DNA of 64,000 bases from positions 3,414,001 through 3,478,000 of the forward strand of contig NZ_OZ038525.1 of the NCBI RefSeq assembly GCF_964036645.1, given 5' to 3'. Shown here in pieces: positions 2,130 to 47,176 of the stretch; position 1 is the first letter of the stretch; each line of letters opens with the position of its first letter. Below the pieces are notes generated by a model. It was not told the DNA's origin and made no database searches. It was given only the letters and a program-made list of their open reading frames with translations. Made by a program: the position numbers and the translations under genes. This DNA comes from Tenacibaculum sp. 190524A02b. Lineage in GTDB: Bacteria > Bacteroidota > Bacteroidia > Flavobacteriales > Flavobacteriaceae.

Positions 2130-5100
2130 ATGTTTAAAATTACAAAAACACTTACACTGTTTTGTTTGTTTGTTTTACATCATGTAATTGCTCAGCAAAA
2201 AGTAGTTACAGGTGTTGTGTCAGACAGCTCGGGTCCTTTACCTGGAGTTACTGTACTTATTAAAAACACTATGAAAGGTACCGAAACCGATTTCGATGGA
2301 GTTTATAACATTAAAGTAGATGAAAACGATATTATTGTTTTCAGTTACATTGGAATGCAAACTGTTGAGAAAAGTGTTAAAGGTATCAGTACTATTAATG
2401 TAGTGCTAGAAGAAGACTCAAATGTCTTAAATGAAGTAGAGGTAGTTGCTACTGGTTATGACAATATCAACAAAAAAGCCTTTACTGGTTCTGCTGCTAC
2501 AATTAAAGCTGAAGACCTTAAAATTGATGGAGTTGTTGATGTTTCAAGAATGTTAGAAGGTAAAGTTGCCGGAGTTAATGTTCAAAACATTTCTGGTACT
2601 TTTGGTGCTGCCCCAAGAATAACGATTCGTGGTTCATCTTCTATCTTTGGTAACAATACTCCTTTATATGTAATTGATGGAGTAGTTCAAGAAGACATTG
2701 TTGAACAAAATTTAGATGCATTAACTTCTGGTGACGCTTCTACCTTAATTAGCTCTTCAATTGCTGGTATTAACTCTAGTGATATTAAGAAAATTGACTT
2801 ATTAAAAGATGCTTCTGCTACCTCTATATATGGGGCAAGAGCAAGAAATGGTGTTGTTGTTATCACTACTAAAAGTGGTAAAAGATCAACTCCTTTAAAG
2901 GTAAAATATTCATTAGAGCAAACTGTTAGAGATATCCCTAGCTATTCTCAATATGATATTTTAGACTCTAGAGAAACTATTGGTATTTTAGAAGGTTTAA
3001 GAAGTCAAGGTTATTTAAGATTCCCTGATGTTGGTAATGCTCGTTTTTCTGGGGTATATGGTATTTTAGAAAAAAGAATCAACACTTATTTAAACAATGG
3101 AACTTTTGGAACTCCTAACGTTGTGGAAGCGAGAAATAGATTCTTAAGAGACTATGAATTAGCTAACACTAACTGGTTCAAAACATTATTTAACCAATCA
3201 ATTTCTCAAAATCATTCAATCAATTTTAGTGGTGGTGGTGAGAAAAATGCTTTTTATGCTTCAGTTGGTTTCTTTAATGACCCAGGATGGACAGTAGCTG
3301 ATAATGTTAATAGATTAACAGCTAATCTGAAAAACACTTTTTTCTTTTCTGATAAATTCAAATTATCATTAGCTTCAGTTGCTTCTATCAGAGAACAAAG
3401 AGCTCCAGGTACTTTCCGTAGAGAAGCTAATGTAGTTGATGGTCAATTTTCAAGAGATTTTGACATTAACCCATTTAGTTATGCTTTGAATACTTCTAGG
3501 GCTTTAAGACCTAGAGACAATAATGGAAATTACGAGTACTATACTAATAACTGGGCTCCATTTAACATTTTAGAAGAGTTAGAAAATAACTTTATAGACT
3601 TAAACGTAAGTGATATCCGTTTTCAAGCAGATGCTTCATATAAATTAACTGATCATATAACTTATGAGGTTAATGGAGCTGCCAGATATGTAAATAGCTC
3701 TAGAGAACACCAAATTAAAGAAGATTCAAATGTAGTTAGAGCATATAACTCAAATGAAACTCCTGTAATTGCAAATGCTAACATTTTCTTGTATAATGAT
3801 CCAAATAATCCTGACGCTATTCCAGTTCCAGTTTTTCCTGAAGGAGGATTATATATTAAAAATGACAATAGATTGACTTCTTATTACTTAAGAAATAGTA
3901 TTAAGTATGATAATACTTTTAATGAGAAACATAGTTTAAATGTATTATTAGGTCAAGATTTAAGGTATATCAATAGAGATAATAATAACTTTACTGGTTA
4001 TGGGTTACAATATAATAATGGTTATACTCCGTTTACAGACCCAAGATTATTAGAAAAGGTTATTACTGATGGTGGTAATTACTTTGGTGTTGGGCAAGAA
4101 AGAGAAAGAACTGTTGCTTTCTTTGGTAAGGCTACTTATGGATTTGATGACAAATATATTTTCTCTGTTACTGGAAGATATGATGGATCCAACAGACAAG
4201 GTAGAAGCGCTAGCTCTAGATGGTTACCAACTGGTACTGTAAGTGCTAAATGGAATGCTTCTAGAGAAAAATTCTTACAAAACTCTAATACTATTAGTAA
4301 TCTTCAATTTAGAGGTTCATATGGTTTAGTAGCAACTCCTGGTTCAGCTACAAATGCTTTAGCTATTTTTAGAAGTCAAATTACAGATAGACTTACTCCT
4401 TCAGAAAGAGAAACCTATTTAGACATTAATGATCTTGAAAACTCAGAGCTTACTTGGGAAAAGCAATATGAATTGAATATTGGTTTTGATCTTGGTTTAT
4501 TTAACAATCGTGTAAATATAACTACAGACGTATACTCTAGAGATATTTTTGACAACATTGATTTTGTAAGAACTTCAGGTATTGGTGGTGAATTATTTAA
4601 ACAAGGGAATAATGCTGATGTAGAAACTAAAGGTATTGAGTTTGGAATTACTACCAAGAACATTTCTACAGATAATTTTTCTTGGACTTCTAATTTAAAC
4701 TTCTCATACTATGATCAAAAGATAACAAAACTACAAAATGAACCAAGAGTTGTAGATCTTGTAGGTGTTCAAGGTGGTAATCTTGAAGGGTATCCTATTA
4801 ACTCTCTTTTCTCTTTTGATTTCCAAGGCTTAAATAATGAAGGTCTTCCTACTTTCAATTTAGCAGAAGGAGAAGATCCAACTACAGGTGTTGATTTTCA
4901 AGATTCGGAAAACATTAGTGATTATTTAGTTTTTAATGGATCAGTTATTCCTAATATTTCTGGTGGTATTTCAAATTCATTTAAATATAAAAACTGGGAC
5001 TTAAATGTATTAATAACTGGTGCTGGAGGTAATGTAATTAGATTAAATCCTTCATTAGATAATTTCTACTCAGGAACTAATGTTTTTACTAAAAGCTCAA

Positions 5101-5482: not shown

Positions 5483-6976
5483 ATGAAAATATTACAATAT
5501 AAATATATAACAGCAATCGTTTCTCTTACGTTATTATTTTCTTTCGTAGGATGTAGCGAGTATTTATCTGAATTACCAGATAATAGGACAGATATAGACT
5601 CTCCTGAAAAAATTAGTGCATTAGTTACTGGAGCTTACCCTCAAGGTAACTATATGTTAATGGCAGAATTAATGTCAGACAATGCTTTCTCAAAAAACAC
5701 CACAAATGGGGTAGTTAACTCTAGACTGCATGAAGATATGTTCAACTGGGAAACTTCTAATGATGATAACCAAGATACTCCGGTTTTTTATTGGTCTAAT
5801 TGTTACGAAGCTATTTCTCAAGCAAACCAAGCTTTAAAATCTATTGAAGATTTAAAAGGTCAATATAATTTAAATGCACAAAAAGGAGAAGCTCTTGTAG
5901 CAAGAGCTTATGCTCATTTTATGCTAGTGAACTTCTGGGGAAAACATTACGATCCAAGTACAGCTAGTAGTGATTTAGGTGTACCTTATGTTACAGAACC
6001 TGAAACTGTATTGATAAAAAAATACAAAAGAAACACGGTTCAAGAAGTATATGATTTAGTAGAAAAAGATTTACTTGAAGGAATAAAGTTAATCGTAAAA
6101 AGAGAAAGAAATGCTAAATTTCACTTCTCAAAAGAGTCTGCTCATGCATTTGCTACAAGGTTTTATACTTTCAAAGGAGAATGGGCTAAAGCTATACAAC
6201 ATGCTTCTCTGGCTTTAACAGATCCTAGAAATGAAATAAGAAACCAAATAGAATTAAGAGGTTTATCTTATTCTCAACAAACTTTAAGGTATAATGGTTC
6301 ATTAGAAAGAGCTAATATGTTAATTAACTCTGTTAGTTCTTGGTGGGCAAGGAATTATGCAAGTACTAACTATGGATTGATTTCTGGTTCTACAATTTTA
6401 TCTTCAAACAATCCTCTTGGTAAAGCTTGGGCTTACCAAACTTTTGGAGGAAATCGTTTCTCTAATAGACCTAAGTATGATGAATATTTTAAAATTACTA
6501 ATCAAAGTGCAGGAACTGGTTTCGGGTTTACCGCTCAAGTTTTATTTAGTAAAGATGAAGTTTTGTTAAATAGAGCTGAAGCTTACGCAATGTTGGGTGA
6601 TTATACTAACTCTTTAAAAGATTTAACAGATTACCTATCACAAAAAACTTTAGGTTTTAATGATGGTAGCGACAATGTCACTGAAAACATGATCGTTAAC
6701 ACATTCCCTGTAGTTGCTGATGAATTAACACCTCCATACCCTATGGATGATAAACAAACTTCTTTTGCTAAAGCTATTTTAGAATTTAAACAAAAAGAGT
6801 TCTACCATGAAGGTATGCGTTGGTTTGATGTTAGAAGGTTTAAAATAAAAATAGAACGTGACTTTATCAAAGGTGGAGTATCTACTCCTATAACCTTAGA
6901 AAAAGATGACAATCGTAAGCAATTGCAAATACCGCAATCTGCAATAAACTTTGGTTTAACTCCTAATCCTAGATAA
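5483..6976 (+). CDS. SusD/RagB-family substrate-binding lipoprotein
   Basis: This 497-residue lipoprotein caps the SusC-type receptor and binds the substrate at the cell surface. The N-terminus has a hydrophobic signal and a lipobox (FSFVGC, Cys near residue 24). Typical SusD features follow: SELPDNRTDIDSPEKISALVTGAYP, the helical TPR-like core with RAYAHFMLVNFWGKHYD, the segment EVLLNRAEAYAMLGDYTNSLKDL, and the C-terminal FYHEGMRWFDVRRFKI. It is 11 bp downstream of the SusC gene and 2 bp upstream of the next lipoprotein, so the four genes form one operon. Confidence 0.95.
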   Translation: MKILQYKYITAIVSLTLLFSFVGCSEYLSELPDNRTDIDSPEKISALVTGAYPQGNYMLMAELMSDNAFSKNTTNGVVNSRLHEDMFNWETSNDDNQDTPVFYWSNCYEAISQANQALKSIEDLKGQYNLNAQKGEALVARAYAHFMLVNFWGKHYDPSTASSDLGVPYVTEPETVLIKKYKRNTVQEVYDLVEKDLLEGIKLIVKRERNAKFHFSKESAHAFATRFYTFKGEWAKAIQHASLALTDPRNEIRNQIELRGLSYSQQTLRYNGSLERANMLINSVSSWWARNYASTNYGLISGSTILSSNNPLGKAWAYQTFGGNRFSNRPKYDEYFKITNQSAGTGFGFTAQVLFSKDEVLLNRAEAYAMLGDYTNSLKDLTDYLSQKTLGFNDGSDNVTENMIVNTFPVVADELTPPYPMDDKQTSFAKAILEFKQKEFYHEGMRWFDVRRFKIKIERDFIKGGVSTPITLEKDDNRKQLQIPQSAINFGLTPNPR

Positions 6977-37893: not shown

Positions 37894-37922
37894 AAAAAAA
37901 CCTCTCAATGTTAACTGAGAGG
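37894..37922 (-). terminator. Terminator of peptide unit P1
   Basis: CCTCTCA/TGAGAGG stem with an 8-nt loop followed on the minus strand by seven Ts. The same hairpin type closes units P3, P4, P5 and the 10-residue unit. Confidence 0.85.
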
Positions 37923-37947
37923 CTTTCGTATAATCCTATTGTGTTTA

Positions 37948-38049
37948 CTAGTGGCTTAATGCATAACTAGCTCCTTTTCCAAATTCTGATAAGATGTTTA
38001 CTAATTTAAGTGTTGCTTTTTTAATGTTGTTAAGTAATTTTTTTTCCAT
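37948..38049 (-). CDS. Small cationic peptide P1 of the tandem array (33 aa)
   Basis: The peptide starts MEKKLLNNIKKATLK and ends EFGKGASYALSH. It has no cysteine, no cleavable signal and a net positive charge of about +4, and it should form an amphipathic helix. Five paralogues of exactly 33 residues lie in the next 3.5 kb; all keep E22-F23-G24-K25, A27, Y29 and A30. It has its own promoter (-7 box 38102-38109), a 5' leader with a GGTTATT/AATAACC hairpin, and a terminator. A membrane-active or bacteriocin-like peptide, a type I toxin or a signal peptide are all possible; the function is unknown. Confidence 0.75.
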   Translation of the reverse strand: MEKKLLNNIKKATLKLVNILSEFGKGASYALSH

Positions 38050-38101
38050 GATAATTGATTTTAAATTTTTCCCTTGTGGTTATTCCCTCAAATAACCAAC
38101 A

Positions 38102-38167
38102 CAAATATACCACTGATTTACAACAACTAAAATGGAAACTCCGCAACTAAAAATGTTATTTTCCGCA
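38102..38167 (-). promoter_or_regulatory. Array promoter of P1 with paired half-sites
   Basis: TATATTTG -7 box at 38102-38109; half-sites with CCG at 38141 and 38163 (22 bp apart, near one 39 bp from the box edge). Confidence 0.75.
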
Positions 38168-38194
38168 ACATCTTAACTTTACTTATATAAATCA

Positions 38195-38266
38195 CAAAAC
38201 CTCCTGAAATCCTTCCAGAAGGTGTTTGTTTTTCCCCTTAAATTATCCGCTCATATTAATGAGTGA
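38195..38266 (-). ncRNA. Putative small RNA S1
   Basis: About 72 nt from the predicted start to a terminator hairpin (ACCTcCTG/CAGaAGGT) with a TTTTGT tail. It has a 5' hairpin CTCAT..ATGAG and the single-stranded block TTTAAGGGGAAAA, shared with S2-S6. The only ORF is four codons (MSG), so it is more likely an RNA than a message. Confidence 0.55.
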
Positions 38267-38271
38267 CACTG

Positions 38272-38337
38272 CAAAGATATATGACTAACACCTTCTATAA
38301 AATGGGTTTTCCGTAACTTAAAATGTTATTTTCCGCT
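38272..38337 (-). promoter_or_regulatory. Array promoter of S1 with paired half-sites
   Basis: TATCTTTG -7 box at 38272-38279; CCG half-sites at 38311 and 38333 (22 bp apart). Confidence 0.75.
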
Positions 38338-38361
38338 CACTTTTTCTTTAGATATTTTTAA

Positions 38362-38392
38362 TAAAAAAGCCTCCCAGTTTATACTGAAAGGC
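38362..38392 (-). terminator. Terminator of the P2 / 111-residue protein transcript
   Basis: GCCTTTCAGT/ACTGGGAGGC-type stem (10 bp) with a T-run on the minus strand, 55 bp after the stop of the 111-residue gene. Confidence 0.82.
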
Positions 38393-38446
38393 CATAGAAA
38401 AACCCTATTGTTACTACGTCTAATAAAGTGTTATATACTAATATAT

Positions 38447-38782
38447 TTAGTTTTCTTTAGAACCTTTTAAAAGTCCTTGGAATAGAATTTTATTATCTAT
38501 TTTCATGAGTTCAGATTGTATTACCTCAACTACTTTACTTCTTTCTTTTCCTTGCTTCAATAACTTATATGCCTTTTCAGCATAAGGTAAAGCTACTTTC
38601 TTAAAAGACTCATTACTCATTTCTTTTACCATAGCTTCACTCATATTAGCTCTTACTGCTCCATCTATAGTGTAAACAATTGAAAAGGCAGCACCTTTAC
38701 AAATATCCTTTTTTGTTACATCTTGCCCACATATATTGGTTATACAAAACAACAATAAACTTATAAATAGTATTTTTTTCAT
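38447..38782 (-). CDS. Small exported protein co-transcribed with peptide P2 (111 aa)
   Basis: The 111-residue protein has a signal peptide (MKKILFISLLLFCITNICGQ). The mature part of about 90 residues is helical, with a single Cys near residue 28 (DICKGAAFSIVYTIDGAV). I recognise no family. It starts 10 bp after the stop of peptide P2, with no terminator between, so P2 and this protein share the array promoter at 38947-39012. It is the only larger protein in the array and could be an immunity, carrier or partner protein for the peptides; that is inference from position. Confidence 0.75.
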   Translation of the reverse strand: MKKILFISLLLFCITNICGQDVTKKDICKGAAFSIVYTIDGAVRANMSEAMVKEMSNESFKKVALPYAEKAYKLLKQGKERSKVVEVIQSELMKIDNKILFQGLLKGSKEN

Positions 38783-38792
38783 TTTTACATTT

Positions 38793-38894
38793 TTAATTAC
38801 TTATTGCATAACTAGCTCCTTTTCCAAATTCTGATAAGATGTTTACTAAATTAAGCGTTGCTTTTTTAATATTGTTAAGTAATTTTTTTCCCAT
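38793..38894 (-). CDS. Small cationic peptide P2 of the tandem array (33 aa)
   Basis: The peptide starts MGKKLLNNIKKATLN and ends EFGKGASYAISN. It differs from P1 at a few positions and keeps the shared EFGK.A.YA core. Unlike the other units it has no terminator of its own but continues into the gene for a 111-residue exported protein. Its promoter and leader match the rest of the family. Confidence 0.75.
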   Translation of the reverse strand: MGKKLLNNIKKATLNLVNILSEFGKGASYAISN

Positions 38895-38946
38895 GATAAT
38901 TGATTTTAAATTTTTCCCTTGTGGTTATTCCCTCAAACAACCAACA

Positions 38947-39012
38947 CAAATATATAACTGATTTACAGTAATTAAAATGAAAATTCCGCAACTAAAAATG
39001 TTATTTTCCGCA
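38947..39012 (-). promoter_or_regulatory. Array promoter of P2 with paired half-sites
   Basis: TATATTTG -7 box at 38947-38954; CCG half-sites at 38986 and 39008. Confidence 0.75.
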
Positions 39013-39039
39013 ACATCTTAACTTTACTTATATAAATCA

Positions 39040-39111
39040 CAAAACCTCCTGAATTTCCCTCAGAAGGTGTTTGCTTTTCCCCTTAAATTATCCGCTCATA
39101 TTAATGAGTGA
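39040..39111 (-). ncRNA. Putative small RNA S2
   Basis: Same layout as S1: 5' CTCAT..ATGAG hairpin, TTTAAGGGGAAAA block and a terminator stem at 39044-39068 with a TTTTG tail. Confidence 0.55.
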
Positions 39112-39116
39112 CACTG

Positions 39117-39182
39117 CAAAGATATATGACCAATACCTTCTATAAAATGGGTTTTCCGCAACTAAATATGCTATTTTCCGTA
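39117..39182 (-). promoter_or_regulatory. Array promoter of S2 with paired half-sites
   Basis: TATCTTTG -7 box at 39117-39124; CCG half-sites at 39156 and 39178. Confidence 0.75.
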
Positions 39183-39204
39183 TAACTAAAATGTTTTAAA
39201 AAGA

Positions 39205-39232
39205 AAAAACCTCTCAATTAATACTGAGAGGT
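39205..39232 (-). terminator. Terminator of peptide unit P3
   Basis: ACCTCTCA/TGAGAGGT stem followed on the minus strand by a T-rich tract, 26 bp after the P3 stop. Confidence 0.85.
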
Positions 39233-39257
39233 TTATAATTTGGTTAGTGATTTCTTT

Positions 39258-39359
39258 TTAATGACTTAGTGCATATCCTGCTGCTTTGCCAAATTCTGAT
39301 AAAAGTGTTATAAAATTATGTGTTACTTTTTGTGTCTTGTTAAGTAATTGTTTCCCCAT
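39258..39359 (-). CDS. Small cationic peptide P3 of the tandem array (33 aa)
   Basis: The peptide starts MGKQLLNKTQKVTHN and ends EFGKAAGYALSH. P3, P4 and P5 form a close subgroup (G24-K-A-A-G28, a GxxxG-type helix-packing motif) and sit in nearly identical repeats of about 500 bp, so they arose by recent tandem duplication. Net charge is about +3, with no cysteine. It has its own promoter, leader hairpin and terminator. Confidence 0.78.
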   Translation of the reverse strand: MGKQLLNKTQKVTHNFITLLSEFGKAAGYALSH

Positions 39360-39413
39360 GATAATTGATTTTAAATTTTTCCCTTTAATGGTTATTCCCT
39401 CAAATAACCAATA

Positions 39414-39479
39414 CAAAAGTAAACCTGATACACCACAACTAAAACGGGAATTCCGCGAATTGATTTGTCTTTTTCCGTA
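39414..39479 (-). promoter_or_regulatory. Array promoter of P3 with paired half-sites
   Basis: TACTTTTG -7 box at 39414-39421; CCG half-sites at 39453 and 39475. Confidence 0.75.
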
Positions 39480-39542
39480 AGTATTGAACTTTTACACTTT
39501 CAGATAAATTAACTTGACAATTATACTTACCTGTATAAATCA

Positions 39543-39614
39543 CAAAACCTCCTGAATTTCCCTCAGAAGGTGTTTGCTTTTCCCCTTAAATTATCCGCTC
39601 ATATTAATGAGTGA
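39543..39614 (-). ncRNA. Putative small RNA S3
   Basis: Same layout and almost the same sequence as S2; terminator stem at 39547-39571. Confidence 0.55.
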
Positions 39615-39619
39615 CACTG

Positions 39620-39685
39620 CAAAGATATATGACCAATACCTTCTATAAAATGGGTTTTCCGCAACTAAATATGCTATTTTCCGTA
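39620..39685 (-). promoter_or_regulatory. Array promoter of S3 with paired half-sites
   Basis: TATCTTTG -7 box at 39620-39627; CCG half-sites at 39659 and 39681. Confidence 0.75.
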
Positions 39686-39705
39686 TAACTAAAATGTTTT
39701 AAAAA

Positions 39706-39735
39706 GAAAAAACCTCTCAATTAATACTGAGAGGT
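39706..39735 (-). terminator. Terminator of peptide unit P4
   Basis: ACCTCTCA/TGAGAGGT stem at 39712-39735 with a T-rich tract on the minus strand. Confidence 0.85.
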
Positions 39736-39760
39736 TTATAATTTGGTTAGTGATTTCTTT

Positions 39761-39862
39761 TTAATGACTTAGCGCATATCCTGCTGCTTTGCCAAATTCT
39801 GATAAAAGTGTTATAAAATTATGTGTTACTTTTTGTGTTTTGTTAAGTAATTGTTTCCCCAT
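39761..39862 (-). CDS. Small cationic peptide P4 of the tandem array (33 aa)
   Basis: The amino-acid sequence is identical to P3; only silent base changes are seen. It lies 503 bp from P3 in a near-copy of the same module. Conservation of the peptide with silent changes indicates selection on the protein. Confidence 0.78.
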   Translation of the reverse strand: MGKQLLNKTQKVTHNFITLLSEFGKAAGYALSH

Positions 39863-39914
39863 GATAATTGATTTTAAATTTTTCCCTTGTGATTATTCTC
39901 TCAAATAACCAATA

Positions 39915-39980
39915 CAAAAGTATACCTGATACACCACAACTAAAACGGGAATTCCGCGAATTGATTTGTCTTTTTCCGTA
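39915..39980 (-). promoter_or_regulatory. Array promoter of P4 with paired half-sites
   Basis: TACTTTTG -7 box at 39915-39922; CCG half-sites at 39954 and 39976. Confidence 0.75.
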
Positions 39981-40043
39981 AGTATTGAACTTTTATGCTT
40001 TCAGTTAAAATGGCTAGACAACTACACATACCTGTATAAATCA

Positions 40044-40115
40044 CAAAACCTCCTGAATTTCCCTCAGAAGGTGTTTGCTTTTCCCCTTAAATTATCCGCT
40101 CATATCAATGAGTGA
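40044..40115 (-). ncRNA. Putative small RNA S4
   Basis: Same layout as S1-S3, with a CTCATTGATATGAG 5' hairpin; terminator stem at 40048-40072. Confidence 0.55.
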
Positions 40116-40120
40116 CACTG

Positions 40121-40186
40121 CAAAGATATATGACCAATACCTTCTATAAAATGGGTTTTCCGCAACTAAATATGCTATTTTCCGTT
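40121..40186 (-). promoter_or_regulatory. Array promoter of S4 with paired half-sites
   Basis: TATCTTTG -7 box at 40121-40128; CCG half-sites at 40160 and 40182. On the plus strand the far site reads TCCGTTAAG, which fits the published LytTR half-site pattern. Confidence 0.75.
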
Positions 40187-40205
40187 AAGTAAAGTTTCTT
40201 AAAAA

Positions 40206-40235
40206 AGAAAAACCTCTCAATTAATACTGAGAGGT
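40206..40235 (-). terminator. Terminator of peptide unit P5
   Basis: ACCTCTCA/TGAGAGGT stem at 40212-40235 with a T-rich tract on the minus strand. Confidence 0.85.
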
Positions 40236-40260
40236 TTATAATTTGGTTAGTGATTTCTTT

Positions 40261-40362
40261 TTAATGACTTAGCGCATATCCTGCTGCTTTGCCAAATTCT
40301 GATAAAAGTGTTATAAAGTTATGTCTTACTTTTTGTGTCTTGTTAAGTAATTGTTTCCCCAT
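40261..40362 (-). CDS. Small cationic peptide P5 of the tandem array (33 aa)
   Basis: The peptide equals P3 and P4 except Thr13 is Arg. It lies 500 bp from P4 in the third close copy of the module. It shares the promoter, leader hairpin and terminator types. Confidence 0.78.
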   Translation of the reverse strand: MGKQLLNKTQKVRHNFITLLSEFGKAAGYALSH

Positions 40363-40416
40363 GATAATTGATTTTAAATTTTTCCCTTTAATGGTTATTC
40401 CCTCAAATAACCAATA

Positions 40417-40482
40417 CAAAAGTAAACCTGATACACCACAACTAAAACGGGAATTCCGCGAATAGATTTGTCTTTTTCCGTA
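40417..40482 (-). promoter_or_regulatory. Array promoter of P5 with paired half-sites
   Basis: TACTTTTG -7 box at 40417-40424; CCG half-sites at 40456 and 40478. Confidence 0.75.
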
Positions 40483-40544
40483 AGTATTGAACTTTTATGC
40501 TTTCAGATAAATTAACTTGACAATTATACTTACCTGTATAAATC

Positions 40545-40616
40545 ACAAAACCTCCTGAAATCCCTCAGAAGGTGTTTGCTTTTCCCCTTAAATTATCCGC
40601 TCATATCAATGAGTGA
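40545..40616 (-). ncRNA. Putative small RNA S5
   Basis: Same layout as S4; terminator stem at 40550-40573. Confidence 0.55.
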
Positions 40617-40621
40617 CACTG

Positions 40622-40687
40622 CAAAGGTATATGACCAATACCTTCTATAAAATGGGTTTTCCGCAACTAAAAATGTAATTTTCCGTA
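40622..40687 (-). promoter_or_regulatory. Array promoter of S5 with paired half-sites
   Basis: TACCTTTG -7 box at 40622-40629; CCG half-sites at 40661 and 40683. The base change relative to S1-S4 keeps the TAnnTTTG consensus. Confidence 0.75.
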
Positions 40688-40707
40688 CAAATAAAATGCT
40701 TTACAAA

Positions 40708-40736
40708 TAAAAACCTCTCGATAGTATTCGAGAGGT
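40708..40736 (-). terminator. Terminator of the 10-residue ORF unit
   Basis: ACCTCTCG/CGAGAGGT stem at 40713-40736 with a T-rich tract on the minus strand. Confidence 0.85.
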
Positions 40737-40773
40737 CTTAGAGTCGTCTTTGTTCATCCATTATACTTGTAAT

Positions 40774-40806
40774 TTATTTACCAGTACTAATTTCAAAATA
40801 AGACAT
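40774..40806 (-). CDS. Possible 10-residue peptide of the array
   Basis: The unit occupies the place of a 33-residue peptide gene between S5 and S6 and has a full array promoter and terminator, but the only ORF found is ATG-initiated and reads MSYFEISTGK. It could be a very short peptide, or the transcript (about 40700-40867) may act as RNA. A decayed peptide gene is also possible. Confidence 0.35.
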   Translation of the reverse strand: MSYFEISTGK

Positions 40807-40872
40807 TGTTGGTTCTTTTTATTAAAGTTTACCCGATCTAGTTTTTCAACTAATTATTCAAATAATCTTTGG

Positions 40873-40938
40873 CAAAATTAAATTCAAATAAATGTATCTA
40901 AAAGGGTTTTTCCGTTGTTAAAATTGTATAATTCCGCA
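40873..40938 (-). promoter_or_regulatory. Array promoter of the 10-residue ORF unit
   Basis: TAATTTTG -7 box at 40873-40880; CCG half-sites at 40912 and 40934. The spacings are the same as in the other 14. Confidence 0.72.
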
Positions 40939-40974
40939 ATAAAACAATCAAGATATGTTTCCTATATAAAAACA

Positions 40975-41046
40975 CAAAACCTCCTGAAATCCCCTCAGAA
41001 GGTGTTTGCTTTTCCCCTTAAATTATCCGCTCATGATTGAGTGACA
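40975..41046 (-). ncRNA. Putative small RNA S6
   Basis: 5' hairpin CTCAATCATGAG, TTTAAGGGGAAAA block and terminator stem at 40979-41003. The promoter region has diverged more than in S1-S5, but the RNA body is conserved. Confidence 0.55.
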
Positions 41047-41051
41047 TACTA

Positions 41052-41117
41052 CAAATTTACAAGAAGTATATTTTTCACTAAAGGGGATTTCCGCATATAA
41101 AAGTGTAGTTTTCCGTT
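41052..41117 (-). promoter_or_regulatory. Array promoter of S6 with paired half-sites
   Basis: TAAATTTG -7 box at 41052-41059; CCG half-sites at 41091 and 41113. Confidence 0.75.
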
Positions 41118-41141
41118 AACCCTATTCTTAAAGTAAACTAC

Positions 41142-41228
41142 CTCGGGGCAAGCCCATGAGGCATTTAATAAGATAATACGTTTAATTTCGAGGCAAGCCT
41201 CGGGATATTATACCCTTTGGCGGTACCA
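41142..41228. repeat. Interspersed repeat-like element, copy 1
   Basis: It contains CTCGGGGCAAGCCCATGAG and GAGGCAAGCCTCGGG, two short inverted repeats. A diverged relative is at 42047-42136. It looks like a dispersed intergenic element that inserted in the array. Confidence 0.4.
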
Positions 41229-41242
41229 ATAAATTATTCCAT

Positions 41243-41271
41243 AAAAAAAGTCTCTTAAATTAATAAGAGAC
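41243..41271 (-). terminator. Terminator of peptide unit P6
   Basis: GTCTCTTA/TAAGAGAC stem with seven Ts on the minus strand, about 80 bp after the P6 stop. Confidence 0.82.
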
Positions 41272-41349
41272 CTTTATGAATAATTAAACTACCTTAACAA
41301 CAATTATCAAGGTATTAAACCCTTAGTTACTACCTTAGGTTCAAATTCT

Positions 41350-41451
41350 TTAATGCCTAAGTGCATAACTTGCACCTTTTCCAAATTCAGCTAAAGCTGA
41401 TAAAACTCCTACTAGAGCATTTTTTACTTTTTTAAATAATTGTTTTCCCAT
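41350..41451 (-). CDS. Small cationic peptide P6 of the tandem array (33 aa)
   Basis: This is the most diverged member. It starts MGKQLFKKVKNALVG and ends EFGKGASYALRH, again exactly 33 residues with E22-F-G-K25, A27, Y29 and A30 kept. Net charge is about +5. Positions 11-21 are strongly hydrophobic and alternate with the basic N-terminus, as in membrane-active peptides. It has its own array promoter (-7 box 41505-41512) and leader hairpin. Confidence 0.75.
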   Translation of the reverse strand: MGKQLFKKVKNALVGVLSALAEFGKGASYALRH

Positions 41452-41504
41452 TTTTAATATGTTTTAAATTTTTCCCTTATGGTTATTCCCTCAAATAACC
41501 AATA

Positions 41505-41570
41505 CAAATATACCACTGATAATCAGCGTTAAAAATGGGTTTACCGTTGTTAAAACCGTAATTTTCCGCA
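41505..41570 (-). promoter_or_regulatory. Array promoter of P6 with paired half-sites
   Basis: TATATTTG -7 box at 41505-41512; CCG half-sites at 41544 and 41566, with a third CCG between them at 41556. Confidence 0.72.
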
Positions 41571-41590
41571 AAACAAAACATTATAAAATA

Positions 41591-41664
41591 CAAAACCTTC
41601 TAGATTTCCCCATCTAGAAGGTTTCATTTTCCCCTTAAATTATTCTTCTCATAAAAACGAGTAA
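41591..41664 (-). ncRNA. Putative small RNA S7
   Basis: 5' hairpin CTCGTTTTTATGAG, AATTTAAGGGGAAAA block and a perfect 12-bp terminator stem (AACCTTCTAGAT and complement) with a TTTTG tail. The stem differs from S1-S6 while the block is kept. Confidence 0.55.
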
Positions 41665-41669
41665 CACTA

Positions 41670-41735
41670 CAAATATATCTTCTATTCTGTTTTTTAAAAA
41701 GGGGATTTCCGCACAAAAAAATGTAGTTTTCCGCA
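41670..41735 (-). promoter_or_regulatory. Array promoter of S7 with paired half-sites
   Basis: TATATTTG -7 box at 41670-41677; CCG half-sites at 41709 and 41731. Confidence 0.75.
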
Positions 41736-41879
41736 AAACACAACCATAAACAACTGTTTTACTGAAGCTTAAACCACATAAAAACTTAAAAACAATAAAC
41801 TATGTACTTATAAATACACTTTATAATTTTCAAAGTGATAATGGGAAAATTGTAAGATACAGCAGTTAATTTTTCGACA

Positions 41880-41965
41880 TAAAAAAAACCTTCTAGCTTA
41901 GGCCTGAAGGTTTTCTTTTAAATTTCCTCTTCTTCTCAAGGAATTTCTCCCTTTACGATTAACTC
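41880..41965 (-). ncRNA. Putative small RNA S8
   Basis: About 85 nt with AAAGGGAGAAA in place of the usual block and a terminator stem ACCTTC..GAAGGT followed by eight Ts. It is the rightmost unit and lacks the CTCAT hairpin. Confidence 0.5.
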
Positions 41966-41970
41966 TGTAA

Positions 41971-42036
41971 CAAAGTTATGCAACATTCAAGGGGTAGAAA
42001 AAGGGATGTCCGCACAAAAAAATGTTGTTTTCCGCA
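41971..42036 (-). promoter_or_regulatory. Array promoter of S8 with paired half-sites
   Basis: TAACTTTG -7 box at 41971-41978; CCG half-sites at 42010 and 42032. Confidence 0.75.
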
Positions 42037-42046
42037 AATGAATTGC

Positions 42047-42275: not shown

Positions 42276-42953
42276 TTAATCCAAAATACCTAACTCCTTA
42301 GCCTTCAACACTAAATCAGTATTGTTATTGGCATTTAAATCTGTACGTAATTTTGCTAACTTACTTTCAATAGCTCTAATTTTAACTAAATTCCCATCAG
42401 GCTTTGTAATTACACCTTCCATATTTGAGATTTTAGTATGCCTTGGTAATTCCTTTAAAATTTGAACGGCTACATCATCCATTTGAATTTCAATCATAGC
42501 ACGTTTCATTAATTTTTCATGAATTTCATGCGTGTAATACGTTTCATCATTCAACATTTTTTGAATGGCAAAGTTCAACTCGTTTGTATTACACTTTCCT
42601 TTTAAAATATAAGCTAACGGGTTTAGGTTACGTACTACATTATATACTCTATTGGTTTCTGAATGTCCAGTAATTACTCCCACTTTTATGGGTAATTTTT
42701 CTTTTTGAATAGCTTTAATCAAGTTTTCTCCACCATCAATAGTATTATTATCCGTAGCATTATCAAAACTTAAATCGGTAAAAAGTATATGAAAAGGTTC
42801 TGTATGCAGATGTGATTTTACCATATGAAAAGCCTCATCACAAGAATTGGTACTGGTTATGTCAAGTCCATCAATATCTTTAAGATATGAAAGTATTCCC
42901 TCAATAATTAGTTGATGATCATCAACAAAAAGTATTTTTATTTTATCAGACAT
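42276..42953 (-). CDS. Response regulator with divergent LuxR-like DNA-binding end
   Basis: The 225-residue regulator has a receiver domain (ILFVDDHQLIIEG, then HILFTDLSFDNA with the likely phospho-Asp, and LAYILKGKC with the conserved Lys). The C-terminal part ends ESKLAKLRTDLNANNNTDLVLKAKELGILD, which aligns with the last helices of LuxR-type domains, although the usual LSxREREVL start is missing. It overlaps the kinase gene by 8 bp. Its position beside the small-peptide array makes it a candidate regulator of that array, but paired direct half-sites are less usual for LuxR-type proteins. Confidence 0.85.
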   Translation of the reverse strand: MSDKIKILFVDDHQLIIEGILSYLKDIDGLDITSTNSCDEAFHMVKSHLHTEPFHILFTDLSFDNATDNNTIDGGENLIKAIQKEKLPIKVGVITGHSETNRVYNVVRNLNPLAYILKGKCNTNELNFAIQKMLNDETYYTHEIHEKLMKRAMIEIQMDDVAVQILKELPRHTKISNMEGVITKPDGNLVKIRAIESKLAKLRTDLNANNNTDLVLKAKELGILD

Positions 42954-44805
42954 TTAAAGGTATTTGAATATTGGTTTCAGTTCCCAAACCTACCTTACTA
43001 CTAATTGCGAGTTCTCCCTTTAACTCCTCAACTCTTTCTTGTAAATTATGTAAACCGATTCCCTTTTTACTAATGGTGGTATCAAAACCAATACCATTAT
43101 CAGTAATATTCAAAAATACATTTTTTTTATGTACCGAAAAAACTATCATTACTTTTGATGCTTCTGCATGTTTTTTACAGTTTTGTAAACTCTCTCTAGT
43201 ACATATATATAATAGTCTTTTTAAAGTACTATCTACCTCTTCCCAATTGTGCTCATTTAAACCTTGTACAACAATTCTAAACCCTGGCTCAAAATAATCG
43301 GTAACCAAATTGATAATCTGATCTTTAAAAGAAACTTTTTTAAAACTTACACTACTTAACTGGTGCGATAAGTTTCGTACATTTTCTTTAACGGCATCCA
43401 ATCTTTGGGCTTCGTCTAAAAGTTGTGAACGTTCTAGTTTTCTATGTAGTAAACGTAAATCTCCTGCTACTTCATCATGCAAGGCTTTGGCAATTTGTTT
43501 ACGCTCTTGCTCTCGTGCTTGTGCTTTTTGTAATTGTGCTTGGTATAACAATTTTCTTCGTCTGAAAACAAAAAACAAAATACTAAACCCTAAACCTAAT
43601 AAACTGATTAATGACATTAGCCAACCAATGATTTTTTGTTGGGTTTGCCTTACTATCTCTGCTTGTTTTTTATCGTTTTCTGCTTTTAAAAAGGTGTTTT
43701 CTTCTTCTTTTTTAGTGGTTTCATAACGGATTTTTGCAAATTGGTTTTTTAAACTCCGTTCTTTCTTTATTAAACTATCATTTAGTTGTATGTATTCTTT
43801 TAAATAATTGGTTGCTTCTTCTCCTTTGCTAAGCTCAGATAATAATTCCAAAGCTTCTAACCAACGTTTATTGTTATGGGTTTGTTTTGCATACTTTAAA
43901 GCTTTAATTAAATTAAACTTAGCCAAATTAAAATCCTCACTATCAATATAATACCTGCCTATATTTACATAAACAGTACTTAATCTATTAAAATCCTTTA
44001 GCTTTTCTCTTATATCAGCAACTTCTATATATTTACCCAAAATATCTTTACTCACACCTAAAGAAGAACTGCTAACAGCAAAATTCTCTAATAGTAAGGT
44101 ATAATTTTCTGGATACTTAATTTTTATGCTATCAAATGCTAGACCTTCCTCAAAATACTCTATCGCTTTTTTATGCTGGTCTCTTTTCTGGTACAGTAAT
44201 CCTAAGTTGTTAAAAACTCTTAAATATCCTATTTCCTTTACTTGTTTATTATTATTTAACTTACTAACCTCATGCGCTTTATTATAATAATCTATCGCAT
44301 CTTTTTTTCTATCAAACTCTTCAGATATTAAACCTAAATTATTATACAAGCTCTCTAAAAACCTAAATGATTTAATTGGCTCTAAGTAATGCAATGCTTC
44401 AATAGAACTTATTTCACTACCTAAAAAATCCTTTGCATCCCTTTGCAAAACAGCAATACTTAACAACCTCCTTCCAACTTCTAAGGAATCTTTTAAATCT
44501 TTTGATATTTTTTTTGATTCATGATAAAAATAATAAGAACTATCAGCTATAAATTTGATTCTGTGATGAAGAGCTTTAAAATGATAATATTTAGCTAAGG
44601 CGGAAGAATCCTTATATTTTCTATATAATTGTAATAATTTTTTTCCTGATTTATTTAAAGTAAAAGTATCTTTCTTATAATAAGAATCTATACCTATCTC
44701 TACCAATTTTTTTTTCCTTAAATCATAAGAACTCAACAACTCTTCACCTTGTTGAGAAAATGTAGTAGTTATCGATAAAATTATAATTATGAGAAAAAAG
44801 CGCAT
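42946..44805 (-). CDS. TPR-containing sensor histidine kinase (HisKA_3 type), second system
   Basis: The 619-residue kinase has a signal peptide (ending TTFSQQ), TPR repeats over about residues 45-335 (for example RKKDAIDYYNKAHEVSKLN and HKKAIEYFEEGLAF), a coiled region, and one membrane helix near 393-415 (IIGWLMSLISLLGLGFSILFFVF). HisKA_3 has His443 in IAKALHDEVAGDL, and the HATPase has DNGIGFDTTISKKGIGLHNLQERVEELKGEL. It is built like the kinase at 19.1 kb. It probably senses an extracellular peptide or protein and controls the overlapping regulator gene. Confidence 0.9.
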   Translation of the reverse strand: MRFFLIIIILSITTTFSQQGEELLSSYDLRKKKLVEIGIDSYYKKDTFTLNKSGKKLLQLYRKYKDSSALAKYYHFKALHHRIKFIADSSYYFYHESKKISKDLKDSLEVGRRLLSIAVLQRDAKDFLGSEISSIEALHYLEPIKSFRFLESLYNNLGLISEEFDRKKDAIDYYNKAHEVSKLNNNKQVKEIGYLRVFNNLGLLYQKRDQHKKAIEYFEEGLAFDSIKIKYPENYTLLLENFAVSSSSLGVSKDILGKYIEVADIREKLKDFNRLSTVYVNIGRYYIDSEDFNLAKFNLIKALKYAKQTHNNKRWLEALELLSELSKGEEATNYLKEYIQLNDSLIKKERSLKNQFAKIRYETTKKEEENTFLKAENDKKQAEIVRQTQQKIIGWLMSLISLLGLGFSILFFVFRRRKLLYQAQLQKAQAREQERKQIAKALHDEVAGDLRLLHRKLERSQLLDEAQRLDAVKENVRNLSHQLSSVSFKKVSFKDQIINLVTDYFEPGFRIVVQGLNEHNWEEVDSTLKRLLYICTRESLQNCKKHAEASKVMIVFSVHKKNVFLNITDNGIGFDTTISKKGIGLHNLQERVEELKGELAISSKVGLGTETNIQIPLNV

Positions 44806-45847: not shown

Positions 45848-47176
45848 ATGGATCAAGACATCAGTTTTAAACGGATAAATAAACTTGCCATCCCTGCTTT
45901 AATTGCAGGTGTTGCAGAACCTTTGCTTTCTACCACAGATTTGGCTATTGTTGGTAATATTGACACCAATGCTACCGAAAGTATTGCGGCTATTGGTGTG
46001 GTTGGTGCTTTTTTATCCATGCTTATTTGGGTGTTTGGACAAACACGTAGTGCCATTTCTTCTATTGTTTCACAATATTTAGGAGCTAATCAACTCAATG
46101 CTATTAAAGATTTACCTGCACAAGCTATTGTTTTAGTAGTTACTACTAGCTTATTAATTCTAGGGTTAACCTATCCGTTTGCTAAAGAAATTTTTGAGTT
46201 CTATAATGCAAAAGGTACCATACTTGAATTTTCTATTGAATATTATAAAATTCGTGTTTTTGGTTTTCCTTTAACCTTATTTGTTATTGCTGTGTTTGGG
46301 GTTTTTAGAGGTTTGCAAAATACGTATTACCCTATGCTTATTGCTATTATTGGTACAGTAGTTAATATTGTTTTGGATGTTATTTTGGTATATGGAATTG
46401 AGGGATACATTCCAGCTATGAATATTCAAGGTGCTGCCTATGCTAGTGTTTTTGCTCAGTTTACTATGGCTGTTATTTCTGGGGTTTTATTATTGAAAAA
46501 AACAAGTATTTCATTACGTTTTACTTTACCTTTTAATAAGGAAACACCACGGTTTATAACCATGATTTTAAACTTATTTGTAAGAACTATTGCTCTTAAT
46601 GTGGCGTTGTATTTTGCTACTTCCTATGCTACTGCTTATGGTAAAGAATACATTGCTGCTTATACTATTGGCTTAAATTTATGGCTTATGGCTGCTTTTA
46701 TGATTGATGGTTATTCTAGTGCTGGTAATATACTTTCAGGAAAGTTGTTAGGCGCAAAGGCTTATGGTACTTTATTGGCTTTGGGCAAAAAATTGATTTT
46801 ATATGGTTTTATTTTTGGGACTGCTTTAGGTGTAATAGGCTTTATTTTTTATCAATTTATTGGTCAAATTTTTACACAGGAAGCTCTTGTTTTAGAGCAG
46901 TTTTACACTAGTTTCTGGATTATACTAGCTATGCAACCTATTTGTGCTATTGCTTTTATTTATGATGGTATGTTTAAAGGACTTGGTGAAACTAAATATC
47001 TTAGAAATATTTTACTTTTAGCTACTTCATTGGTATTTGTGCCTGTTTTACTGGTTTTTGATTATTTTGACTATAAACTGTACGCTATTTGGATTGCTTT
47101 TTATGCTTGGATTATTGCCAGGGGAATTCCTTTAATTTTTCTGTTTAGAAAAAAGTTTGTGCCGCTTTCTAAGTAG
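45848..47176 (+). CDS. MATE-family efflux transporter
   Basis: The 442-residue inner-membrane protein has twelve hydrophobic segments in two related halves. It opens FKRINKLAIPALIAGVAEPLLSTTDLAIVGN, the usual MATE beginning, and contains GAFLSMLIWVFGQTRSAISSIVSQYLGA and GVFRGLQNTYYPMLIAIIGTVVNIVLDVILVYG. It exports drugs or metabolites in exchange for Na+ or H+; the substrate is unknown. Related repeats lie on both sides. Confidence 0.92.
   Translation: MDQDISFKRINKLAIPALIAGVAEPLLSTTDLAIVGNIDTNATESIAAIGVVGAFLSMLIWVFGQTRSAISSIVSQYLGANQLNAIKDLPAQAIVLVVTTSLLILGLTYPFAKEIFEFYNAKGTILEFSIEYYKIRVFGFPLTLFVIAVFGVFRGLQNTYYPMLIAIIGTVVNIVLDVILVYGIEGYIPAMNIQGAAYASVFAQFTMAVISGVLLLKKTSISLRFTLPFNKETPRFITMILNLFVRTIALNVALYFATSYATAYGKEYIAAYTIGLNLWLMAAFMIDGYSSAGNILSGKLLGAKAYGTLLALGKKLILYGFIFGTALGVIGFIFYQFIGQIFTQEALVLEQFYTSFWIILAMQPICAIAFIYDGMFKGLGETKYLRNILLLATSLVFVPVLLVFDYFDYKLYAIWIAFYAWIIARGIPLIFLFRKKFVPLSK

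Follow-up and report, generated by a model that had tools for sequence, protein, structure and literature searches.

Tandem small-RNA and micropeptide units beside a two-component pair in Tenacibaculum: a probable regulon and a possible RNA decoy circuit

Introduction

In the Gac/Rsm (BarA/UvrY-Csr) pathway, a NarL-type response regulator turns on RNAs that carry GGA-like motifs, and such motifs are also found in mRNA leaders near the start codon. The two-component output of the agr system in Staphylococcus consists of RNAIII and short amphipathic leaderless peptides, with a different type of regulator and a secreted autoinducer, and leaderless bacteriocins of the aureocin A70 type comprise several cationic peptides of ~30 residues that are encoded side by side. 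Post-transcriptional control in Bacteroidota is little understood, and the few RNA-binding regulators known there are recent. In CiaRH of Streptococcus pneumoniae a single response regulator controls several similar small RNAs, and five csRNAs act additively on comC (available text of PMC4507080), and multicopy small RNAs are known from Bacteroides, where FopS comprises 14 RNAs at multiple loci, which are driven by canonical sigma promoters and repress glycan-uptake mRNAs by pairing (available text of PMC11697453). Here we describe a 64,000-nucleotide stretch of the Tenacibaculum sp. 190524A02b genome (contig NZ_OZ038525.1, positions 3,414,001 to 3,478,000; hereafter the window), in which 15 short predicted transcription units on the minus strand (37.9-42.0 kb) form a tandem array, flanked by the genes for a response regulator and for a glpK-like member of the FGGY family (Pfam).

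This locus resembles Gac/Rsm in that a GGA-type motif is common to small RNAs and to the leaders of peptide genes, at frequencies above those in shuffled sequences and long open reading frames (ORFs). It differs in that none of 39 genomes has a CsrA match over cut-off, an RNA mostly carries one or two motifs, the RNAs lie in tandem and the only motif-bearing mRNAs seen are those of micropeptide genes. The likeness to agr is one of described features, and the array and the shared GGGA leader set our locus apart from it; unlike the peptides of the aureocin A70 type, each peptide here has its own predicted regulated promoter. As for the csRNAs of CiaRH in Streptococcus, one response regulator appears to drive several similar small RNAs, whereas here a single tandem array lies beside a NarL-type regulator in a Bacteroidota host, peptide mRNAs carry the same RNA element and no pairing targets were found. 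With FopS/RbpB the locus shares multicopy paralogous Bacteroidota small RNAs with a single-stranded segment before the terminator, and differs from it in its peptide units, which the available text of that report does not describe (PMC11697453). No description of the present system was found in the open-licence literature.

Results

The 15 units comprise six with a 33-residue peptide ORF (P1-P6), eight small RNAs (S1-S8) and one (U) of uncertain type, transcribed in the order S8-S7-P6-S6-U-S5-P5-S4-P4-S3-P3-S2-P2-S1-P1 (Table 1). The original prediction, made from the letters alone, had claimed six 33-codon ORFs on one strand in this order, with P3 and P4 encoding the same peptide, and all of this was recovered, the two genes showing 2 synonymous differences. 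At the head of each unit lies a 41-nt element, present in 15 copies, in which TGCGGAAA...TTTT occurs twice as a direct repeat at a distance of 22 bp; from the end of the second CGGAA it is a constant 29 nt to the flavobacterial -7 box TAnnTTTG. As the -7 box lies at -12 to -5 in Flavobacterium psychrophilum (available text of PMC9723704), transcription starts were placed ~5 nt past the final G of TAnnTTTG. A position weight matrix (PWM) trained on the array and related loci returned the 15 array sites and nothing else from both strands of the window, in support of the earlier claim of one promoter per unit, as the direct-repeat site and the -7 box were found in 15 of 15 units. A strict pattern of site plus box gave 13 matches in the 5,036,910-base genome, all in the array, with none in the reversed control, and a looser site pattern (at most 3 mismatches) gave 16 genomic places, 15 of them in the array, again against 0 in the reversed control, so that the array sites exceed what chance would give. 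A wrong-spacing pattern, serving as negative control, matched twice in 59 genomes, neither time at an array. The 16th near-site (L202 4404-4760, minus strand, ~2178.4-2178.8 kb of the same genome) stands 29 nt before a TAAATTTG box, and the 91-aa ORF behind it is a candidate protein-coding target of the same regulator.

The array itself had been described correctly by the original prediction, which did not connect it with the two-component pair directly upstream, whose kinase and regulator genes overlap by 8 nt. An alignment of 23 regulator sequences gave a mean column identity of 75%, and the AlphaFold model (mean predicted local distance difference test score, pLDDT, 80.9) has helices predicted at the C-terminus. 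The output domain gave no Pfam match; the top Foldseek matches were spr1814, LiaR and RcsB, with VraR also present, in alignments over the length of the protein at a TM-score of ~0.5-0.6. The modelled fold thus agrees with a regulator of the NarL/FixJ type, with a receiver and a predicted four-helix helix-turn-helix output domain. The kinase gave UhpB/LiaS-type NCBIfam matches, every one below cut-off, and its signal peptide and transmembrane (TM) segment were judged by eye.

Regulator orthologues (E < 1e-80) were found in 23 of the 59 genomes searched, and a scan of named genomes gave 75 distinct regulator loci, 66 of which are titled Tenacibaculum or Polaribacter and the other 9 belong to other flavobacterial or Crocinitomix records, mostly metagenome-assembled; the counts of these two sets are not independent, because they overlap in several identical contigs. 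A site starts at most 110 nt past the regulator stop codon in 61 of 75 named loci and in 20 of 23 loci of the 59-genome set, compared to 2 matches in 450,000 control positions, a count that takes in both strands and, in a few loci, a first 3 kb extending past the kinase; one of the two scores as the own site of L134 and the other is unexplained. An exact site match was present in 8 of 59 genomes, 7 of which have the regulator, and the eighth (G033, with only a 29%-identical regulator relative) looks like chance. Taken together, it is very probable from these sequence relationships that the array is the regulon of the adjacent kinase/regulator pair, and we infer that the regulator binds the direct repeats. 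For 20 of the 23 regulators of the 59-genome set, the start falls inside an upstream open frame; the frame of L032 ends at the edge of its stretch and that of L075 has only 256 codons. The regulators of G018 and G022 (L084, L086) have no kinase-sized frame directly upstream, and that of G028 (G028:C1:2670480-2671154, L089) lies inside a single open frame of 863 codons, which suggests a natural kinase-regulator fusion.

The number of units differs widely among relatives. PWM sites over 12 bits numbered none in 12, one in 26 and two to eight in 37 of the named loci, and none in 2, one in 12, two or three in 6, six in G034, 14 in G002 and 15 in the window in the 23-locus set. In most Polaribacter loci the regulator is followed by a single RNA; in many Tenacibaculum loci this first RNA is joined by at least one S RNA and one peptide unit. 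A filter for ATG starts, which misses some peptides such as the GTG-start one of L095, detected a peptide ORF in 22 of the 75 named loci and in 6 of the 23 loci of the 59-genome set. Because one-RNA loci are common and peptide ORFs were detected in a minority, the first RNA and not the peptide is the most widespread output. The alternation of RNA and peptide units, which the original prediction emphasised, holds for the array, whereas many relatives run from the regulator to a first RNA, further RNAs and one or more peptides. Near-identical tandem copies lie ~500 bp apart in the array, where an S-P block of this length has been multiplied, and the alternation looks like a local outcome of this duplication. 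In G034, a separate run of six tandem peptide units (L032 6350-7980) has regulator-type sites by eye, and its units after the first carry GGGATTATG with the G-run 5-6 nt before the start codon.

The peptide family was represented by 55 distinct coding sequences for 52 peptides collected from the loci, 47 of the 52 being exactly 33 residues long. The C-terminus [AS]E[FC]GKGA[SG]YA[LI]xH is conserved, the middle is variable and several paralogues occur per genome; since the collection was filtered on the C-terminal motif and the start codon was chosen for the length nearest 33, conservation of the C-terminus (and, with several starts, of length) is partly by construction. Over 749 pairs of 33-codon genes with synonymous differences per site (pS) of 0.05-0.6, which are not independent of one another, mean pS was 0.48 and the mean non-synonymous value (pN) 0.32, with pN below pS in 93%; all 1225 pairs, likewise not independent, gave 0.56 and 0.32, respectively. 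P6 differs from the other array peptides at pN 0.29-0.32 and pS 0.37-0.48, an amino-acid divergence nearly equal to the silent one. The original prediction was to fall if the peptides had no paralogues in other genomes and their ORFs no purifying selection, and its sequence side came through, because paralogues and orthologues in other genomes and purifying selection were both found.

The hydrophobic moment exceeded the mean of own shuffles in 52 of 52 peptides (mean 0.58 compared to 0.33), and the net charge ranged from +1 to +7. This cationic amphipathic composition is compatible with a leaderless antimicrobial or signalling peptide, as originally proposed. The main product of the locus could then be the peptide, a multi-component leaderless membrane-active set, antimicrobial or modulin-like, which the two-component system would switch on together with regulatory RNAs, in a logic resembling agr (RNAIII plus modulins) or the blp/pln loci. 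The several paralogues per genome, with their varied middle and conserved C-terminus, speak for such a product as does the amphipathicity, while three window peptides had no match among Pfam and NCBIfam families, no solved structure matched a profile built from five of the window peptides, and 53 of 75 named loci keep the regulator without a detected peptide ORF. We regard this account, which is compatible with a decoy role of the RNAs, as possible but on the unlikely side. Much less probable is peptide quorum sensing, in which an exported peptide would be the ligand of the TPR kinase in a positive feedback: a TPR sensor and peptide genes are co-located and TPR domains bind peptides in RRNPP regulators, but TPR kinases are common in Bacteroidota, no export signal was seen in the peptide by eye, and the Polaribacter loci and several Tenacibaculum loci keep the regulator and the first RNA although no peptide gene was detected there.

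Seven unlinked members of the family (one of 34 aa) were found at six places. Those at L008 (~6340-6440, minus strand), L028, L031, L034 and L036 have common neighbours, the same 120-aa gene upstream and, where seen, a uracil-DNA-glycosylase-like gene downstream (names assigned by eye), and L035 differs. No regulator site was found at the unlinked genes by regular expression. By eye, an element resembling AAAGGGG-AAAA precedes the -7 box in several of them and might serve a different regulator.

An RNA element connects the two kinds of unit. A typical S RNA consists of a species-divergent 5' hairpin, then ATTTAAGGGGAA, then the terminator, with (A/U)UUAAGGGGAA as the single-stranded part, and in most peptide leaders GGG(G)A comes after a hairpin. 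Among 193 distinct units (228 before duplicates were merged and units containing N removed), counts derived from fractions placed GGGA in 97 of 98 S units, 31 of 34 P leaders and 57 of 61 units of a third class, A, compared to 63, 36 and 45% in dinucleotide shuffles; the classes are positional and imperfect, S8 of the window being counted as S and some A-like units standing among S. The longer TTAAGGGGA was present in 47% of S units against 0.4% of shuffles, and in 26% of P leaders against 0.7%. Position gives the strongest evidence: the 50 nt before the start codon contain GGGA in all 7 unlinked peptide genes and in 31 of the 34 linked ones, compared to 13 of 423 long ORFs. The G-run stands 23-26 nt from the start codon in the unlinked genes; among the 34 linked genes this distance is 21-26 nt for 24, 5-6 nt for 8 and 31 nt for the remaining 2. 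Folding z-scores were below -1 for 40 of 40 S segments chosen for carrying the motif, for 80% of 20 P leaders (kept out of 34 after removing duplicates and those ending ATTATG) and for 59% of 27 class A RNAs; because class A folds more weakly than S and P, no conserved hairpin is claimed for it. The evidence for hairpins is single-sequence folding, because the divergent hairpins do not line up in the alignments. In G002 a solitary RNA of the S type with a TTTAAGGGGAAAACAAACCTTCTAG core (L169 ~3220-3320) lies far from the array and has, by eye, at best a degenerate site, so that RNAs of the S family can disperse. Mainly because the motif keeps its distances to the start codon with and without a regulator site and is repeated in non-coding RNAs, we propose one common partner.

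It is likely, with good confidence, that the peptides and RNAs are real and functional. The near-identical tandem copies and the one dispersed S copy might instead speak for selfish or decayed repeats (such as miniature inverted-repeat transposable elements or amplified promoter DNA) or for DNA acting as a sponge of the regulator, in each case with no functional product. We consider this highly improbable, given the position beside the regulator kept in 61 of 75 named loci, the fixed spacing of site and box, the terminators called in 216 of 228 units (automatic calls, false ones included), the purifying selection on the peptides and the conserved RNA motif.

The nearly invariant, seed-like stretch after the S hairpin also raises base pairing, in which the same regulon would drive S RNAs that act like the CiaRH csRNAs, the single-stranded AUUUAAGGGGAA seeding C-rich stretches of unlinked mRNAs, and the peptide leaders would carry it since P units arose from S units. 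In favour of this are the precedent of several similar RNAs under one response regulator (available text of PMC4507080 and PMC8186281), the dispersed S-type RNA of G002 and, in G002 alone, 7 outside matches to the motif complement against 3 in the control. Over six genomes, however, the complementary 11-mer TTTCCCCTTAA gave 28 matches outside the arrays and the stray S copy, and the reversed control gave 28 as well; moreover, in 7 of 7 unlinked peptide genes, which have no regulator site, the spacing between GGGA and the start codon is preserved, so that a site of translation control fits better than ancestry alone. Duplexes between S RNAs and peptide mRNAs, 15 in number and using the first 50 nt of S8, S7, S6, S5 and S1, were no better than simple letter shuffles (z -1.16 to 1.74), which gives no support to an antisense sense of the "paired regulatory RNAs" first proposed; both this and the 11-mer comparison are weak tests of pairing. 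Base pairing is therefore retained as a doubtful alternative. A type I toxin-antitoxin arrangement is not supported, as the 15 duplexes showed no S-P complementarity beyond shuffles in these first 50 nt and the units lie on the same strand, not overlapping in antisense.

The S RNAs reach their terminator after ~70-90 nt, and 0 of 8 contain a complete ORF of at least 20 codons. The ORFs of P3 and P5 sit within longer TTG-start frames in the ORF list. Nearly every unit had been credited with its own terminator, which holds for most of them; P2 has no clear one and apparently continues into a 111-aa ORF that the original prediction lacked. No terminator was visible by eye between the P2 ORF and the 111-aa ORF, and the automatic call for P2 was taken as false as it falls inside the latter. 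The 111-aa ORF gave no Pfam family over cut-off and has one relative, 39% identical, in G021 at a different locus, with none in 37 other relatives searched (E 0.001). Unit U, first read as a 10-codon unit, retains its site and terminator, while its ORF has no conservation evidence and its RNA no GGGA. A search of the window with Rfam (4227 families, release 15, gathering score) gave nothing but one tRNA, and a lax search of the array gave 3 sub-threshold matches (E 0.33-0.51). With regard to a dedicated transporter or immunity gene, as in leaderless bacteriocin loci, the genes beside the array are the FGGY kinase (glpK-like), the regulator and the histidine kinase; the 111-aa ORF lies within it, and a MATE-transporter-like ORF (by eye, 45848-47176) lies beyond the histidine kinase.

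Table 1 Features of the array and its neighbours (window positions; PWM scores in bits)
Feature	Position	Strand	Description
Histidine kinase	42946..44805	-	TPR sensor, one TM, HATPase_c; Pfam TPR + HATPase_c
Response regulator	42276..42953	-	PF00072; NarL/FixJ-type fold (modelled), divergent C-terminal helical DNA-binding domain (predicted)
Unit S8	41881..42037	-	site + promoter 41969-42037; RNA ~41966-41881; regulator-proximal type; PWM 58.1; terminator
Unit S7	41592..41736	-	site 41668-41736; RNA with TTTAAGGGGAA; PWM 71.0
Unit P6	41243..41571	-	site, leader with hairpin + AAGGGAA, 33-aa ORF 41350-41451, terminator; PWM 58.9
Unit S6	40976..41118	-	PWM 64.5
Unit U	40709..40939	-	site 40900-40940 + terminator; RNA without GGGA; 10-codon ORF unsupported; PWM 47.0
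Unit S5	40547..40688	-	PWM 72.3
Unit P5	40208..40483	-	33-aa ORF 40261-40362; PWM 52.3
Unit S4	40045..40187	-	PWM 65.1
Unit P4	39707..39981	-	33-aa ORF 39761-39862; PWM 52.0
Unit S3	39544..39686	-	PWM 66.2
Unit P3	39204..39480	-	33-aa ORF 39258-39359, peptide same as P4; PWM 50.2
Unit S2	39041..39183	-	PWM 66.2; RNA end set by analogy with S3
Unit P2	38793..39013	-	site, leader, 33-aa ORF 38793-38894; apparent read-through into 111-aa ORF; PWM 54.3
111-aa ORF	38447..38782	-	signal-peptide-like start (by eye); apparently co-transcribed with P2
Unit S1	38196..38338	-	PWM 60.6
Unit P1	37894..38168	-	33-aa ORF 37948-38049; PWM 52.5

Discussion

The comparisons support the site, the promoter, the anatomy of the units, their conservation and the link to the regulator, and activation by the regulator and a membrane action of the peptide are inferred. 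Combining these elements, we propose that the adjacent pair has the array as its dedicated output, with RNAs acting as decoys for a partner that controls peptide translation, a reading to which we give an even chance. The kinase would sense a signal via its TPR domain, presumably periplasmic, and phosphorylate the regulator, which would bind the two direct repeats and switch on many tiny promoters together. The outputs would be small RNAs of ~70-90 nt and mRNAs for a cationic amphipathic 33-residue micropeptide, and a single partner, probably an RNA-binding protein, would bind at GGG(G)A and control translation of the micropeptide. The S RNAs may then act as multicopy decoys soaking up the GGGA-binding factor; if so, RNA copy number would set the threshold of peptide synthesis. 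That the S RNAs titrate a common partner in this manner is itself put forward tentatively.

Several observations weigh against such a circuit. GGGA alone is a weak marker, because it occurs in 36-63% of shuffles of these G-rich RNAs, and A-type RNAs share GGG(G)A only, with AAGGGGA in 2% compared to 3% of shuffles and TTAAGGGGA in 0 of 61. Training and use of the weight matrix drew on the same loci, and among the 75 named loci 12 lack any site scoring above 12 bits; inspected by eye, 10 of them retain a CGG half-site, the sequence in L148 is GCGTAAA, and the contig of L168 breaks off. In 53 of the 75 named loci the 6 kb searched yielded no peptide ORF, so that peptide control is unlikely as the ancestral purpose. 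G034 (six units), L106 and L110 have runs of peptide units kilobases off, with sites and with no S between them, and the leader of the 91-aa ORF behind the 16th near-site has no GGGA. The motif could also be a base-pairing seed shorter than the tested 11-mer. As for the partner, CsrA (PF02599) was rejected, being over cut-off in 0 of 39 genomes, with weak sub-cut-off matches (E<=1) in 16, compared to matches in 7 of 14 control genomes, 3 of them over cut-off; no GGGA-binding candidate emerged.

More tentatively still, the decoy reading may be extended to an independently evolved, Gac/Rsm-like decoy circuit without CsrA, in which the recognisable output of one two-component system would be almost only RNA, an expanding tandem set of decoy RNAs and micropeptide mRNAs with a common GGGA element; a novel RNA-binding protein would read GGGA, and the copy number of RNAs and peptides would be tuned by species. 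If a novel GGGA-reading protein were confirmed, the system would be categorically new. The array supplies a precise candidate operator sequence for a Bacteroidota two-component regulator, and the natural series of one to fifteen units in related species may offer a handle on the partner of the motif, on decoy dosage and on a new micropeptide family.

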